The notes under the pieces are model-generated. The model searched no databases and had not been told where the DNA came from. It saw only the letters and a list, made by a program, of their open reading frames with translations. Below, piece by piece: positions 3,965-8,880 of a DNA stretch of 64,000 bases. Position numbers and translations under genes: made by a program. The stretch covers positions 620,001 through 684,000 of the forward strand of contig NZ_CP157940.1 of the NCBI RefSeq assembly GCF_040207125.1, in the 5' to 3' direction. Origin of the DNA: Lacrimispora sp. BS-2. GTDB lineage: Bacteria > Bacillota > Clostridia > Lachnospirales > Lachnospiraceae. Position 1 is the first letter of the stretch; each line of letters opens with the position of its first letter.

Positions 3965-4762
3965 ATGGATGATCAAATGTTAAAGTCTGGGCAAAAGGCC
4001 AAGATAAAAACAGATGCGGTAAACCTTTTTTATGGCAACTTCCAAGCGCTGAGGGATGTTACAATGGATATAGCGGAATGTGCTATAACAGCCATAATCG
4101 GACCGTCAGGATGCGGTAAATCTTCTCTTCTGCGTCTTTTTAATCGTATGAATGACCCGATACCAGGAGTTAGGGTAGAGGGGAAAATTATGCTTGATGG
4201 TGTTTCTATCTATGATAAGAATATGGATGTTGTTGCATTGAAAAAAAGAGTTGGCATGGTTTTTCAAAAACCTAATCCCTTTCCCATGTCTGTGTATGAT
4301 AATATGGCATTTGGTCCAAGGCATCATGGAATAAAGCAAAGAGCCCGTCTTGATGAGATTGTGGAGAGGAACTTGAACCAGGTTGCTTTATGGGACGAAG
4401 TTAAGGACAAACTGAAAGAATCTGCTTTTGATCTTTCTCCGGGCCAGCAGCAGCGTCTGTGTATTGCCCGTGCATTGGCTGTAGAGCCTGAGGTTTTATT
4501 AATGGATGAATCCTGCAGTGCTCTTGATCCGGAATCTACAATGCAAGTTGAGGGGTTAATGGAAGAACTGGCCCAAAAATATACGATCATTATTGTAACT
4601 CATAGTATGGAACAGGCGGCAAGGGTGTCTCATATGACTGCGTTTATGATGATGGATCATGATAGAGCGGGGACATTGGTCGAATACGCTCCAACAGCAG
4701 AAATTTTTGCTAATCCTAAGGATAAACGCACCGAGGACTATATTACAGGTCGATTCGGATAA
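3965..4762 (+). CDS. pstB: Phosphate ABC transporter ATPase PstB1 (catalytic subunit with degenerate signature)
   Basis: A cytoplasmic ATPase of the high-affinity phosphate importer, 265 residues, normal PstB length. Walker A is GPSGCGKSS (46-54, Lys52), Q-loop Gln101 in [11 protein letters not shown], Walker B LLMDE with catalytic Glu182, D-loop SALDP, H-loop His213. Two positions deviate from the family. The ABC signature is LSPGQ (157-161; Pro159 for Gly), and Walker B is followed by SCSALD rather than PCSALD. The gene leads the operon, an unusual place since pstB normally follows pstA, and a second pstB lies at the other end. Its intact Walker A/B and damaged signature complement the second copy exactly (see findings). 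ATG 3965 follows AGGGTGA. Confidence 0.93.
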
Positions 4763-4876
4763 AAAATTTTAAAATGTGAACTTGCAGTTCTTTAATATAT
4801 TCTGAGAAATGGAGGAAATCGAACATTGGAGTTTTATCATAGTAGATGATTTTGATGTTTGATTTTTGTGAGAGAC

Positions 4877-5725
4877 ATGAGGAAAAAGATTGTAACATGC
4901 AAATTATTAAGACGAATAAAAGGTTCTGTCAGCATAGTGATATTGACCCTTTCTATGGGGGTGCTGACTGCATGCAGCCAGGCACCTGGCTCAGCCACGA
5001 TTGTTGCAGGCTCAACTTCCGTACAACCCTATGCTGAGATTCTGGCAGAAGAGTACATGGCTTTAAATCCAGACGCTGTGATTGATATCCAGGGCGGAGG
5101 ATCTTCGGCCGGCATTACGGCAACCAAGACTCACAGTGCTGATATTGGAATGTCTTCCCGTGCATTGACCGATGAGGAGAAAAATCTGTGGAATGTGGAA
5201 ATTGCCAAGGATGGATTGGTATTAATCGTGAACCCCAGGAATCCGATACAAGACCTTACTTCAGATCAGATCCGCGATATTTACGCAGCTACAATTACCG
5301 ACTGGAGTCAATTGGGAGGCTCAAAGTCAAAGATCAATATCATAGCGCGTGAAGAAGGATCAGGTACAAGAAGTGCCTTTGCAGAGCTGTTGATGGATGA
5401 AGAAGAGATAACTCCAAAAGCTATCGTCCAGGACTCCAATGGGGCGGTACGGCAATTGGTTGCGGATGACCCCAATGCGATAGGATTTATCTCTTTGGGT
5501 TTGGTTACGGATGAAGTGAAAGCTTTACATTTAGATGGCATCGAAGCGACACGGGAAAATATAATGAATGGCAGCTACAAACTTTCCAGGCAGTTTTTAT
5601 TTGTCACCGACGGTGAGCCGACCGGATTAAATAGGGAATTCATAGATTTTACCCTTTCTTCAGAGGGGCAGAAATTACTGAGTAATGAGGGACTTATTCC
5701 ATCAGAAGAGGGGGCAGGGAAATGA
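4877..5725 (+). CDS. pstS: Phosphate-binding lipoprotein PstS
   Basis: The periplasm-equivalent, membrane-anchored phosphate receptor of the Pst importer, about 282 residues. A basic N-terminus and hydrophobic stretch end in lipobox VLTAC, so the protein should be lipidated on Cys33 (counting from ATG 4877). The mature part has the usual PBP-like phosphate-binding motifs GSTSVQPY, GGGSSAGI, GMSSRAL and EEGSGTRSAF; the Ser, Thr, Arg and Gly residues of the latter contact phosphate in known PstS proteins. ATG 4877 is preferred over TTG 4859 and GTG 4868 because it gives a typical signal peptide; none has a strong ribosome binding site. It overlaps pstC by four bases (ATGA), indicating translational coupling. 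Confidence 0.93.
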   Translation: MRKKIVTCKLLRRIKGSVSIVILTLSMGVLTACSQAPGSATIVAGSTSVQPYAEILAEEYMALNPDAVIDIQGGGSSAGITATKTHSADIGMSSRALTDEEKNLWNVEIAKDGLVLIVNPRNPIQDLTSDQIRDIYAATITDWSQLGGSKSKINIIAREEGSGTRSAFAELLMDEEEITPKAIVQDSNGAVRQLVADDPNAIGFISLGLVTDEVKALHLDGIEATRENIMNGSYKLSRQFLFVTDGEPTGLNREFIDFTLSSEGQKLLSNEGLIPSEEGAGK

Positions 5726-6567
5726 AGAGTTTTAAGGAAAAATTATCTGAGCGTGTGTTTCTTCTAATTGCTCTTTCGACTTTATCGGTGCTGGCACTCA
5801 TCACTGTGTTTATATTTATAAAAGGTATACCTATTATTGCCAAGGTTGGTATAATAAACTTTGTTTTTGGGATGAAATGGGCTCCCAGCCAAGGTGCCTA
5901 TGGCATTTTCCCGATGATAGTGGGATCTGTATCGGTCACTTTAGGAGCAGCAATCCTGGGAGTTCCCATTGCCATTTGCTGCAGTATTTTTCTGGCTGAG
6001 TTTGCTCCGGCAAAACTTAGAAACATATTCAGACCCGCCATCCAGTTGCTGGCTGCCATACCTTCCGTGGTATATGGGTTCTGGGGAGTATTGTTCGTTG
6101 TACCAATGATACGTAATTACCTGGGAGGGCCGGGCTTAAGCATATTAGCCGGTTCCATCATTTTGGGTATTATGATCCTGCCAACGATCATCAGTATCAC
6201 CGAAGTATCTCTCCTTGCGCTGCCACGCCATTATAAAGATGGGGCACTTGCATTAGGGTTAACACATTGGCAGACGATACGCTCCCTGCTGTTACCTGCG
6301 GCTAAATCGGGTATTGTTGCCGCCATAATTTTAGGTTTAGGCAGGGCAATTGGTGAGACTATGGCGGTGATTATGGTTCTGGGTAATGCTGTCGCACTTC
6401 CTGAATCAGTTCTTGACCCTGTCAGGACGCTGACCACGAATATCGGTATTGAGATGGGATACGCATCCGGCGAACACCAGCAGGCGCTTTTCGCCACTGG
6501 TATTGTATTGTTTGTTATTATTATGATTTTAAATGCTACTGCGCAATACATCACACGAAAGAGGTGA
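5722..6567 (+). CDS. pstC: Phosphate ABC transporter permease PstC
   Basis: One of the two membrane subunits of the phosphate importer, 281 residues with about six hydrophobic segments. The binding-protein-dependent transport EAA loop is present as LALGLTHWQTIRSLLLPAAKSGI (about residues 173-195), the segment that docks onto the ATPase dimer. An N-terminal helix is followed by GAYGIFPMIVGS, typical of PstC. The start overlaps the pstS stop by four bases, and the stop sits just before the pstA ribosome binding site, so the four central genes are one translational unit. Confidence 0.93.
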   Translation: MKSFKEKLSERVFLLIALSTLSVLALITVFIFIKGIPIIAKVGIINFVFGMKWAPSQGAYGIFPMIVGSVSVTLGAAILGVPIAICCSIFLAEFAPAKLRNIFRPAIQLLAAIPSVVYGFWGVLFVVPMIRNYLGGPGLSILAGSIILGIMILPTIISITEVSLLALPRHYKDGALALGLTHWQTIRSLLLPAAKSGIVAAIILGLGRAIGETMAVIMVLGNAVALPESVLDPVRTLTTNIGIEMGYASGEHQQALFATGIVLFVIIMILNATAQYITRKR

Positions 6568-6574
6568 GGTCACT

Positions 6575-7411
6575 ATGAGAATTAACGCGAAAACTTCCGA
6601 AAAGATAGCAAAATTTTTGATTTGGACAGCTGCTCTTCTTGTTATTGCAATTCTTTTTTCTATCATTATCCATATACTAATCAAGGGCATACCTATGCTC
6701 AGTTGGCAGTTTTTAACGGATATTCCGCGGGATATGGGGCGTTCTGGGGGTATTTCTTCTTCTATTGCCGGTACCCTGATTGTAACTGCAGTAGCCGTTA
6801 TTGTAGCAACACCATTTGGAATTGGAACCGCTATATACCTTACGGAGTACACGCGTGAGAGCAGAGTCACCCGCATTATCCGTTTCAGTGCCGAGTCTCT
6901 GGCAGGGATCCCATCCATTGTTTATGGACTTTTTGGTTTTATCTTCTTTGTTATATACTTAAAAATGGGATGGTCAATTTTATCCGGCGGATTAACCATG
7001 GCTATCATGATTCTGCCTACTATCATACGTACATCAGAAGAGGCGATTCGTACTGTGCCGCAGCTATACCGGGAGGTAGGCTTCTCTTTGGGACTCACTA
7101 AGTGGCAGACAATAACCAGGGCGGTACTCCCATCAGCAATCCCTGGTATAGTGAATGGAGTGATTTTGAGCATAGGGAGATGTGTAGCCGAGACTGCTGC
7201 TGTTATTTTAACAGCCGGCTCAGCATTGCGCATGCCTACATCGCTCTTCTCCCCAACTAGAACCATGGCAGTACATTTTTATATACTGGCGAGGGAGGGA
7301 ATATCCATGGATAACGCTTATGGAACAGCAGCGCTCTTGATTATTCTTATTCTTCTGCTTAATGTTGGTTTCAATATGCTGGTCAATCGATTCATAGCGA
7401 AAGGCCGTTAA
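6575..7411 (+). CDS. pstA: Phosphate ABC transporter permease PstA
   Basis: The second membrane subunit, 278 residues, about six membrane segments, paired with PstC. It has GGISSSIAGTL in the early transport domain and the EAA loop FSLGLTKWQTITRAVLPS that contacts PstB. ATG 6575 is chosen because GAGGTGAGG ends 5 bases before it; the frame extends 14 codons further back over the end of pstC but without a better start. Ten bases separate it from pstB2. With two different PstB proteins in the operon, PstC and PstA could each contact one preferred ATPase. Confidence 0.93.
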   Translation: MRINAKTSEKIAKFLIWTAALLVIAILFSIIIHILIKGIPMLSWQFLTDIPRDMGRSGGISSSIAGTLIVTAVAVIVATPFGIGTAIYLTEYTRESRVTRIIRFSAESLAGIPSIVYGLFGFIFFVIYLKMGWSILSGGLTMAIMILPTIIRTSEEAIRTVPQLYREVGFSLGLTKWQTITRAVLPSAIPGIVNGVILSIGRCVAETAAVILTAGSALRMPTSLFSPTRTMAVHFYILAREGISMDNAYGTAALLIILILLLNVGFNMLVNRFIAKGR

Positions 7412-7421
7412 GAGGTGAAAA

Positions 7422-8183
7422 ATGACACAGAAATCAAAAATAGAGATAAAAGGATTAAACTTCTATTATCAACAAAAGCAGGTTATTAAAGAACTTAACC
7501 TGGAGATACCTGAAAATCGGATTATGGCTGTTTTCGGTCCGGCTAACAGTGGTATAACAACATTGCTTCGCACATTAAACCGTCTGAGTGACTTGACAGT
7601 GGGAGCCCGTCAGGAGGGTGAGATACTTTTAGAGGGGAAAAACATCTTTGACCAGGACGTCAATGTGACAGAACTGCGCCGCAGGGTAGGGATGGTCTTT
7701 GATGTACCAACACCTCTGCCTATGTCCATCTTTGACAATGTGGCATTGGGCCCCCGCATGAGTGGAATGAAAACCAAGGCGGCTGTGGAAGAGGAAGTAG
7801 AAAAGGCTCTGCGTATGTCTGCCCTCTGGGATGATGTCAAAGACAGGCTGGATACTCCTGCAGCCAGGTTATCCGGTGGTCAGCAGCAGCGCTTGTGTAT
7901 TGCCAGGGTTTTGGCTCTTGAGCCGGAGGTTATTTTGCTGGACAGACCCTGTTCAGCTCTTGACCCAATATCAACGGCTAAAATTGAGGAATCCTTAATA
8001 CAGCTTAAGGAGCAATACACCATTATCATTGCACCCCATACCGTTCAGCAGGCGGGGCGTATCGCTGACCGGGTAGCATTCATGCTAATGGGAGATCTGA
8101 TTGAACAAGGTTATACTCAAGAGGTTTTTTCATTCCCCAAGGATAATCGAACCAACGATTATCTTACCGGAAGATTTGGTTAA
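7422..8183 (+). CDS. pstB: PstB2: PstB-family ATPase with degenerate nucleotide-binding residues
   Basis: Full-length PstB homologue (253 residues, ending LTGRFG like PstB1), but the ATP site is not canonical. Walker A reads GPANSGITT (39-47), with Ile45 for the essential Lys (codon ATA at 7554). The Q-loop Gln is Asp94 (VFDVP), and Walker B reads ILLDR, with Arg175 for the catalytic Glu (codon AGA at 7944). The signature LSGGQ (150-154), D-loop SALDP and His206 are intact. The frame has no stop or indel, the ribosome binding site is good (GAGGTG) and the gene sits between pstA and phoU, so it is not a decaying pseudogene by appearance. It is probably the non-catalytic partner of PstB1 in an asymmetric heterodimer; a regulatory or inhibitory role is an alternative. 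Confidence 0.9.
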   Translation: MTQKSKIEIKGLNFYYQQKQVIKELNLEIPENRIMAVFGPANSGITTLLRTLNRLSDLTVGARQEGEILLEGKNIFDQDVNVTELRRRVGMVFDVPTPLPMSIFDNVALGPRMSGMKTKAAVEEEVEKALRMSALWDDVKDRLDTPAARLSGGQQQRLCIARVLALEPEVILLDRPCSALDPISTAKIEESLIQLKEQYTIIIAPHTVQQAGRIADRVAFMLMGDLIEQGYTQEVFSFPKDNRTNDYLTGRFG

Positions 8184-8226
8184 ACTTCCGTATATTTATA
8201 ATTTTTTGTAAAAGGAGATGAGCATA

Positions 8227-8880
8227 TTGATTAGAGAACGTTTTGCACAGAAGATACTTGACGTTAAACAAAAGGTATTAAAAATGGGAGCTCTGGTTGA
8301 GAATATTATTGACACGGCAGTGACTGCTTTAAAGACACAAGATCTTGATCTTGCAAGGAATGTTTTTGAGAAAGATGACGAAATAGATCAGTTAGAACTT
8401 GAAATTGAAAAGGAATGTATGATGCTTCTTGCCCTTCAGCAGCCTCTTGCCAAGGATTTAAGGACAATTGCATCGATTCTGAAAATCATAACAGATCTTG
8501 AAAGAATGGGAGACAATGCAGTAAACATTGCAGAGGTAATACTTGAGATTGGCGAAGACCCTATTATGAATTCCCTAAAAGATATTCCAAGTATGGCAGA
8601 TATTGCTCAGAAAATGTTAAAAATGAGTCTTGATGCCTTTGTAAATGAGGATATTGCCCTTGCAGAAAAGGCAGCTGAGAGGGACGAAGATGTTGACAGG
8701 CTCTATGAAACCGTTATAAATGATATCCTTAACATCATCACAGAAAAAAGGGGGCTTACAAAACAAGGTACTAAACTTCTGTTCTTAGGACGGTATCTTG
8801 AGAGAATCGCCGACCATTCTACCAATATATGTGAAAGAACGATATACATGATCACAGGTGAGTTAAAGGAAATCAATTAG
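8227..8880 (+). CDS. phoU: Phosphate signalling protein PhoU
   Basis: A cytoplasmic, all-helical protein of two PhoU repeats (about residues 15-105 and 115-210) that links the Pst transporter to the PhoR kinase and damps the Pho response when phosphate is sufficient. Conserved acidic/metal-binding stretches are visible: EKDDEID and DLERMGDNAVNIAE in repeat 1, and ERDEDVDRLYE and RYLERIADHSTNICE in repeat 2. TTG 8227 is preferred (9 bases after GGAG); ATG 8218 would lie directly on the ribosome binding site. It is the last gene of the operon, and the stop codon is inside the terminator palindrome. Confidence 0.92.
   Translation: MIRERFAQKILDVKQKVLKMGALVENIIDTAVTALKTQDLDLARNVFEKDDEIDQLELEIEKECMMLLALQQPLAKDLRTIASILKIITDLERMGDNAVNIAEVILEIGEDPIMNSLKDIPSMADIAQKMLKMSLDAFVNEDIALAEKAAERDEDVDRLYETVINDILNIITEKRGLTKQGTKLLFLGRYLERIADHSTNICERTIYMITGELKEIN

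Follow-up and report, generated by a model that had tools for sequence, protein, structure and literature searches.

In dimers of ATP-binding cassette (ABC) proteins, every ATP site is shared between two subunits, one contributing its Walker and Q-loop face and its partner the signature motif. The phosphate importer PstSCAB of Escherichia coli has a single PstB gene, and its PstB homodimer has two identical canonical sites, unlike the pair of ATPases considered here. These two proteins, PstB1 and PstB2, are encoded by one pst operon in a 64,000-nucleotide stretch of Lacrimispora sp. BS-2 (contig NZ_CP157940.1, positions 620,001 to 684,000; hereafter, the window). The operon has S, C and A parts and a PstB family (TIGR00972) in common with the E. 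coli system (PDB 9k3s/9k3x). Two PstB genes per pst operon are likewise present in Enterococcus faecalis (pstB1/pstB2) and Bacillus subtilis (PstBA/PstBB). The E. faecalis proteins have non-overlapping roles and, unlike the window pair, are both canonical in their motifs (PMC12096839), and the B. subtilis proteins have been modelled within one complex (PMC11466899). We liken the B. subtilis pair to that of the window by gene pairing, not by motifs.

Most exporters with a degenerate ATP site, with which CFTR is likewise comparable, keep the Walker A Lys. The window pair is predicted to share with TAP (ABCB2/B3), TmrAB, TM287/288 and Pdr5 the combination of one consensus and one degenerate site on non-identical nucleotide-binding domains (NBDs), but these exporters differ in fold and frequently have Asp for the catalytic Glu, whereas PstB2 has lost Lys, Gln and Glu, with Arg in place of Glu (PMC7756269). 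In Pdr5, the Walker A Lys is lost and the signature is LNVEQ (PMC7756269), resembling the LAVEQ of one PstB1 described below. Among importers, RbsA and NupO of B. subtilis have one degenerate site, with a second Walker A lacking Lys and an off-consensus signature (PMC11466899); they are type II importers in which a single chain carries both NBDs, whereas the window operon has separate ATPase genes at the ends of the S-C-A genes. The accessible part of a paper on DppABCDF (PMC12136057) contains nothing on asymmetric sites, and no recognisable description of a degenerate PstB was found in the literature searched, most subscription papers being outside its reach. The preliminary description knew of no phosphate importer of this kind; for PstB we likewise recognised none, but asymmetric importers as such are known (RbsA and NupO). 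What the window system adds to this design, already known in exporters and in RbsA and NupO, is its occurrence in a probable phosphate importer whose two ATPases come from separate genes.

Motif states of the two ATPases

We propose, with a probability of about 0.83, that the operon encodes an asymmetric importer in which PstS, PstC and PstA would be combined with a PstB1-PstB2 heterodimer having one consensus and one dead ATP site. The genes are as follows:

pstB1, 3965..4762, + strand: ATPase identified by TIGR00972 (385.5 bits, cut-off 343.2) and motif reading; K52 (Walker A), Q101 (Q-loop), E182 (Walker B) and H213 (H-loop) intact, signature LSPGQ (157–161) degenerate; AlphaFold mean pLDDT 90.8
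pstS, 4877..5725, + strand: phosphate-binding protein, TIGR02136 (229.1 bits, cut-off 206.6); start chosen by us, 4859 in the open reading frame (ORF) list
pstC, 5722..6567, + strand: permease, TIGR02138 (298.3 bits, cut-off 196.45)
pstA, 6575..7411, + strand: permease, TIGR00974 (286.7 bits, cut-off 193.45); start chosen by us, 6533 in the ORF list
pstB2, 7422..8183, + strand: ATPase-like, TIGR00972 (344.3 bits, barely above the cut-off of 343.2); I45, D94 and R175 replace the Walker A Lys, Q-loop Gln and catalytic Glu, LSGGQ (150–154) and H206 intact; AlphaFold mean pLDDT 92.1
phoU-like gene, 8218..8880, + strand: adjoins pstB2; family name given by recognition

Thus, pstS, pstC and pstA are flanked by pstB1 on the 5' side and pstB2 on the 3' side, and the phoU-like gene follows. 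PstB1 and PstB2 are 49% identical, and both pass the PstB family cut-off and are encoded with pstS, pstC and pstA. The complete ATPase motif set is found in neither subunit, PstB1 having no LSGGQ and PstB2 having lost K, Q and E (stretches GPANSGITT, VFDVPTPLP, LSGGQ and LDRP); by motif reading, the full set is reached only by the two together, and the H-loop His is retained in both (H213 and H206). Re-reading confirmed the coordinates and every residue named in the preliminary description (Lys52, Gln101, Glu182 and LSPGQ in PstB1; Ile45, Asp94, Arg175 and LSGGQ in PstB2), and the two composite sites that it predicted for the pair, one of them consensus and the other degenerate, are likewise predicted from the sequences of relatives, in which the states are conserved. 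The complete site is predicted to arise only from the Walker side of PstB1 and the signature of PstB2. A PstB2 homodimer would have no complete site, and a PstB1 homodimer would have two sites lacking the signature glycine. The substrate is probably phosphate, as PstS is similar to phosphate-binding proteins of known structure (4gd5 being the closest chain, at 1.5e-58), with which it has the stretches GSTSV, GSSAGI, IGM-SR and RE-GSGTR in common.

Conservation and distribution of the pair

The preliminary description had proposed that loss of the Walker residues and loss of the signature might co-occur in homologous operons. This was borne out in the window and in 24 further distinct same-contig pairs (from 28 loci), in all of which PstB1 combines K/Q/E with an off-consensus signature, and PstB2 has a residue other than K, then D or E, then R, with LSGGQ. 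Partial sequences were dropped before the distinct sequences were counted. The Walker A Lys of PstB2 (position 45) was lost in 35/35 sequences (I in 28, V in three, T in two, L and A in one each), the Q-loop Gln was replaced by an acid in all 35 (28 Asp, 7 Glu), the signature LSGGQQQR was always retained, and the catalytic Glu was Arg in 35/35, this last column being circular by itself, as the class was defined by the E-to-R change. PstB1 retained K/Q/E in 29/29 sequences and had lost the first signature glycine in all of them, variably (P in 19, A in six, V in two, L and I in one each; one LAVEQ, in L052), with the same circularity, since this class was defined by a non-Gly signature together with MDES. 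Independent support comes from the Lys and Gln positions of PstB2, from a tree inferred without the motifs (see below) and from the absence, among the same-contig loci compared, of any canonical-signature (LSGGQ) PstB next to a degenerate PstB2. PstB sequences outside both classes kept K/Q/E in 112/112 distinct sequences and the signature glycine in 111/112 (one LSRGQ), which rules out chance; sequencing error is ruled out by the recurrence of the same kind of loss in all 35 PstB2 and 29 PstB1 sequences.

The same kind of states persisted down to 60% identity, and the gene order was B1-S-C-A-B2 in every locus in which all five genes were visible. The same states recur in three more genomes whose two genes are carried on different contigs (PstB1 in L222, L223 and L224; PstB2 in L049, L055 and L056). 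In 34 further loci, a degenerate PstB2 was seen but no PstB1, nearly all of these being short stretches or contig ends; the one real absence is in genome G770. A degenerate PstB2 beside a canonical PstB1, which according to the preliminary description would count against the asymmetric pair if common, was seen in none of the operons compared, G770 coming part of the way to it. A phoU-like homologue adjoins pstB2 in 20 of the 25 pstB2 loci compared; in L043 it follows pstB1, and among these 25 no phoU-like match was found at L047, L048, L055 and L181. PstB1 also has Ser183 directly behind the catalytic Glu, where Pro is usual (29/29, although within the class definition for 26), and Glu216 in place of Gln near the H-loop (29/29); like the acid and Arg of PstB2, these residues look specific. 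Two other PstB pairs (L084 and L099) are canonical in both copies.

Scanning the named genome collection with PstB2 yielded 325 related loci; the 80 best, which were retained, comprised 27 with a degenerate PstB2 (L031–L057) and 53 with a canonical PstB (L058–L110). Among close relatives, the degenerate PstB2 was present in 16 of 99 genomes, 14 of these within the 25 of the genus, the window genome included. A profile built from 22 PstB2 sequences found it in 5/392 genomes of the order, 3/391 of the class and 4/398 of the phylum, the window genome being counted in each of these overlapping samples; a fifth phylum match (G887) was a canonical PstB. In the order sample, degenerate matches had E values of at most 3.7e-131 and the next match had 7.7e-108; the 25 lower-scoring matches read for motifs were all canonical. 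The holders are Lacrimispora, other Clostridia mostly from uncultured assemblies, a Sedimentibacter metagenome-assembled genome (MAG) and one MAG labelled Treponema. The operon thus occurs in few genomes per sample but across a wide range of lineages. Most PstB2 relatives scored slightly under the TIGR00972 cut-off of 343.2 bits (319.6–341.3) and three just over it; because some pass, PstB2 proteins may carry ordinary-ATPase annotations. The Anaerobacterium chartisolvens operon (L057, 4486–8759) is 83–98% identical to that of the window, suggesting recent transfer or a mixed assembly. The MAG labelled Treponema (L048, 4616–8759) holds the pair with no phoU match alongside, by transfer or mis-binning. 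Paired-PstB controls were sought in the phylum of G1212, where 87 of 149 genomes had a match at 1e-90 or below and only two of the 87 had more than one.

Phylogeny, selection and fold

In a tree of 85 rows from which all motif columns had been removed, the PstB2 rows formed one clade and 20 PstB1 rows formed another with the canonical L095 (Shimodaira–Hasegawa-like approximate likelihood ratio test, 100 for both). L215, labelled PstB1 by its LSRGQ signature, fell outside the PstB1 clade. L095 (959–1777, Dehalococcoidales) is a canonical PstB (LSGGQ/MDEP), and no other PstB was found in the assembly that holds it; because it groups with the PstB1 clade, PstB1 probably started with a normal signature. 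Many inner branches were weak, and the quick search used can miss better trees. A tree joining PstB1, PstB2 and L095 was not rejected (approximately unbiased test, p-AU 0.794) and had a log-likelihood 19.74 above that of the free quick tree, so the quick search was incomplete. The pattern looks like one old event that has been maintained, not many independent ones; independent repeated co-loss has no support, PstB1 and PstB2 each being one tree group.

The median dN/dS, from pairs with dS of 0.1–1.5 only, was 0.046 for PstB2 (98 sequence pairs) and 0.050 for PstB1 (60 pairs). Both genes are under strong purifying selection and, at a dN/dS of about 0.05, neither looks decaying. The AlphaFold models of PstB1 and PstB2 are of single chains, and the folds nearest to the PstB2 model are those of E. 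coli PstB (9k3s/9k3x; 50% identity, template modelling score 0.90–0.93 when normalised by the model). The motif states, their conservation, the purifying selection and the operon structure are direct observations, and the pair is real, conserved and, very probably, functional.

Proposed mechanism and alternatives

In the asymmetric importer, PstS, PstC and PstA would be associated with one PstB1 and one PstB2 in a head-to-tail NBD dimer. The consensus site (Lys52, Gln101, Glu182 and His213 of PstB1 with LSGGQ of PstB2) would hydrolyse ATP; the other (Ile45, Asp94 and Arg175 of PstB2 with LSPGQ of PstB1) would not, and would probably not bind Mg-ATP in the usual way. A putative salt bridge between Asp/Glu94 and Arg175 would replace the Mg and water chemistry at the degenerate site, the degenerate interface would act as a hinge and each phosphate would be driven by one ATP instead of two. 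We infer heterodimer assembly, one-site hydrolysis, the salt bridge, the stoichiometry and the substrate. An invariant PstB2 signature despite the lost Walker residues is hard to explain unless it serves another subunit, and the distribution of invariant and variable columns in PstB1 and PstB2 is that predicted if one site is relaxed and the other fully constrained.

Several observations weigh against this interpretation. The co-occurrence of PstB1 and PstB2 amounts to about one evolutionary event, because the tree places each of them in a single group. Genome G770 (96% complete) has a degenerate PstB2 in an S-C-A-B2 operon with no PstB1 (genes at L219 9494–10303 and L181 7199–7996; PstB2 locus reached as L181 and L171). 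Its sole other PstB is a canonical LSGGQ orphan on another contig, where its neighbours resemble phoU and two-component genes (named by recognition), and in the tree it sits among canonical PstBs. The degeneracy of PstB2 is thus not strictly dependent on a degenerate partner, and PstB2 may pair with other PstBs; G770 represents either PstB1 loss with re-pairing or a separate arrangement. A canonical PstB is also encoded in the window genome (4.49 Mb), at a second pst locus. Other results favour the asymmetric pair. Further PstBs were sought through 32 handles corresponding to 27 distinct genomes (five reached twice), and in six of the 27 (G071, G098, G273, G440, G1195 and G1199) there was no further match near the PstB cut-off, the next matches being at about 241–244 bits against 343.2; in a seventh (G952), only its PstB2 was detected. 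Several of these assemblies are incomplete (completeness 96% for G098, 89% for G273, 77% for G071 and 73% for G440), so their status as having only this Pst system is provisional. Eight genomes were tested for PHO4 and Na_Pi_cotrans. Neither family was matched in G273 and G1199, in favour of the pair; against it, Na_Pi_cotrans was matched in G098 and G071, and PHO4 in G1195. In G917, a second pst-like locus (L220, 9654–12287) has an LSRGQ PstB followed by a 604-residue ORF matching PstA, perhaps a fused permease, with a PstC match in L214/L215.

The working motor could instead be a PstB1 homodimer that tolerates LSPGQ, with PstB2 as a non-catalytic regulator linking, for example, PhoU to the importer, as the phoU-like gene beside pstB2 in most loci and the separate roles of the canonical E. 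faecalis PstBs (PMC12096839) might suggest. We consider this unlikely: such a regulator would have no need for an invariant LSGGQQQR once its own Walker residues were gone, and the PstB1 signature varies, with the canonical Gly in 0/29 sequences, classed partly by this feature. Another option, in which PstB2 mainly partners the canonical PstB of a different pst locus and one site is consensus while the other is half-degenerate, is favoured by G770 and by the canonical PstBs of the window genome and others. It is nonetheless very unlikely, given the six genomes without another PstB match near the cut-off, and it does not account for the signature loss of PstB1 that accompanies degenerate PstB2 in 24 operons besides that of the window.

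If the assembly were instead a phosphate sensor or a channel whose gating relied on asymmetric ATP sites, this would suit the slow cycling that degenerate sites may allow and the co-encoded phoU-like gene; with one composite site complete, PstS, PstC and PstA above their family cut-offs, and this system the sole phosphate importer found in two assemblies, it appears highly improbable. The loss of all three catalytic residues might also reflect drift in a decaying duplicate, an explanation of almost negligible probability in view of the dN/dS of PstB2 (from pairs within the dS range above), which disfavours a pseudogene, the same states down to 60% identity, the open frames and the confident fold.

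The asymmetric importer would be a natural case of an importer that has given up one of its two ATP sites and has stayed that way across widely diverged relatives. The acid at the Q-loop together with Arg at the catalytic Glu position, in all 35 PstB2 sequences counted, is an unusual kind of degeneracy. Such an importer would open to direct test whether ABC importers need two ATP hydrolyses per cycle, the symmetric PstSCAB serving as control. More tentatively, and with rather less than even odds, a lineage of phosphate importers of Clostridia may have become a one-ATP-per-cycle machine in which a nucleotide-free, salt-bridged hinge has permanently replaced one site; if so, the ATP cost of phosphate uptake would be halved.

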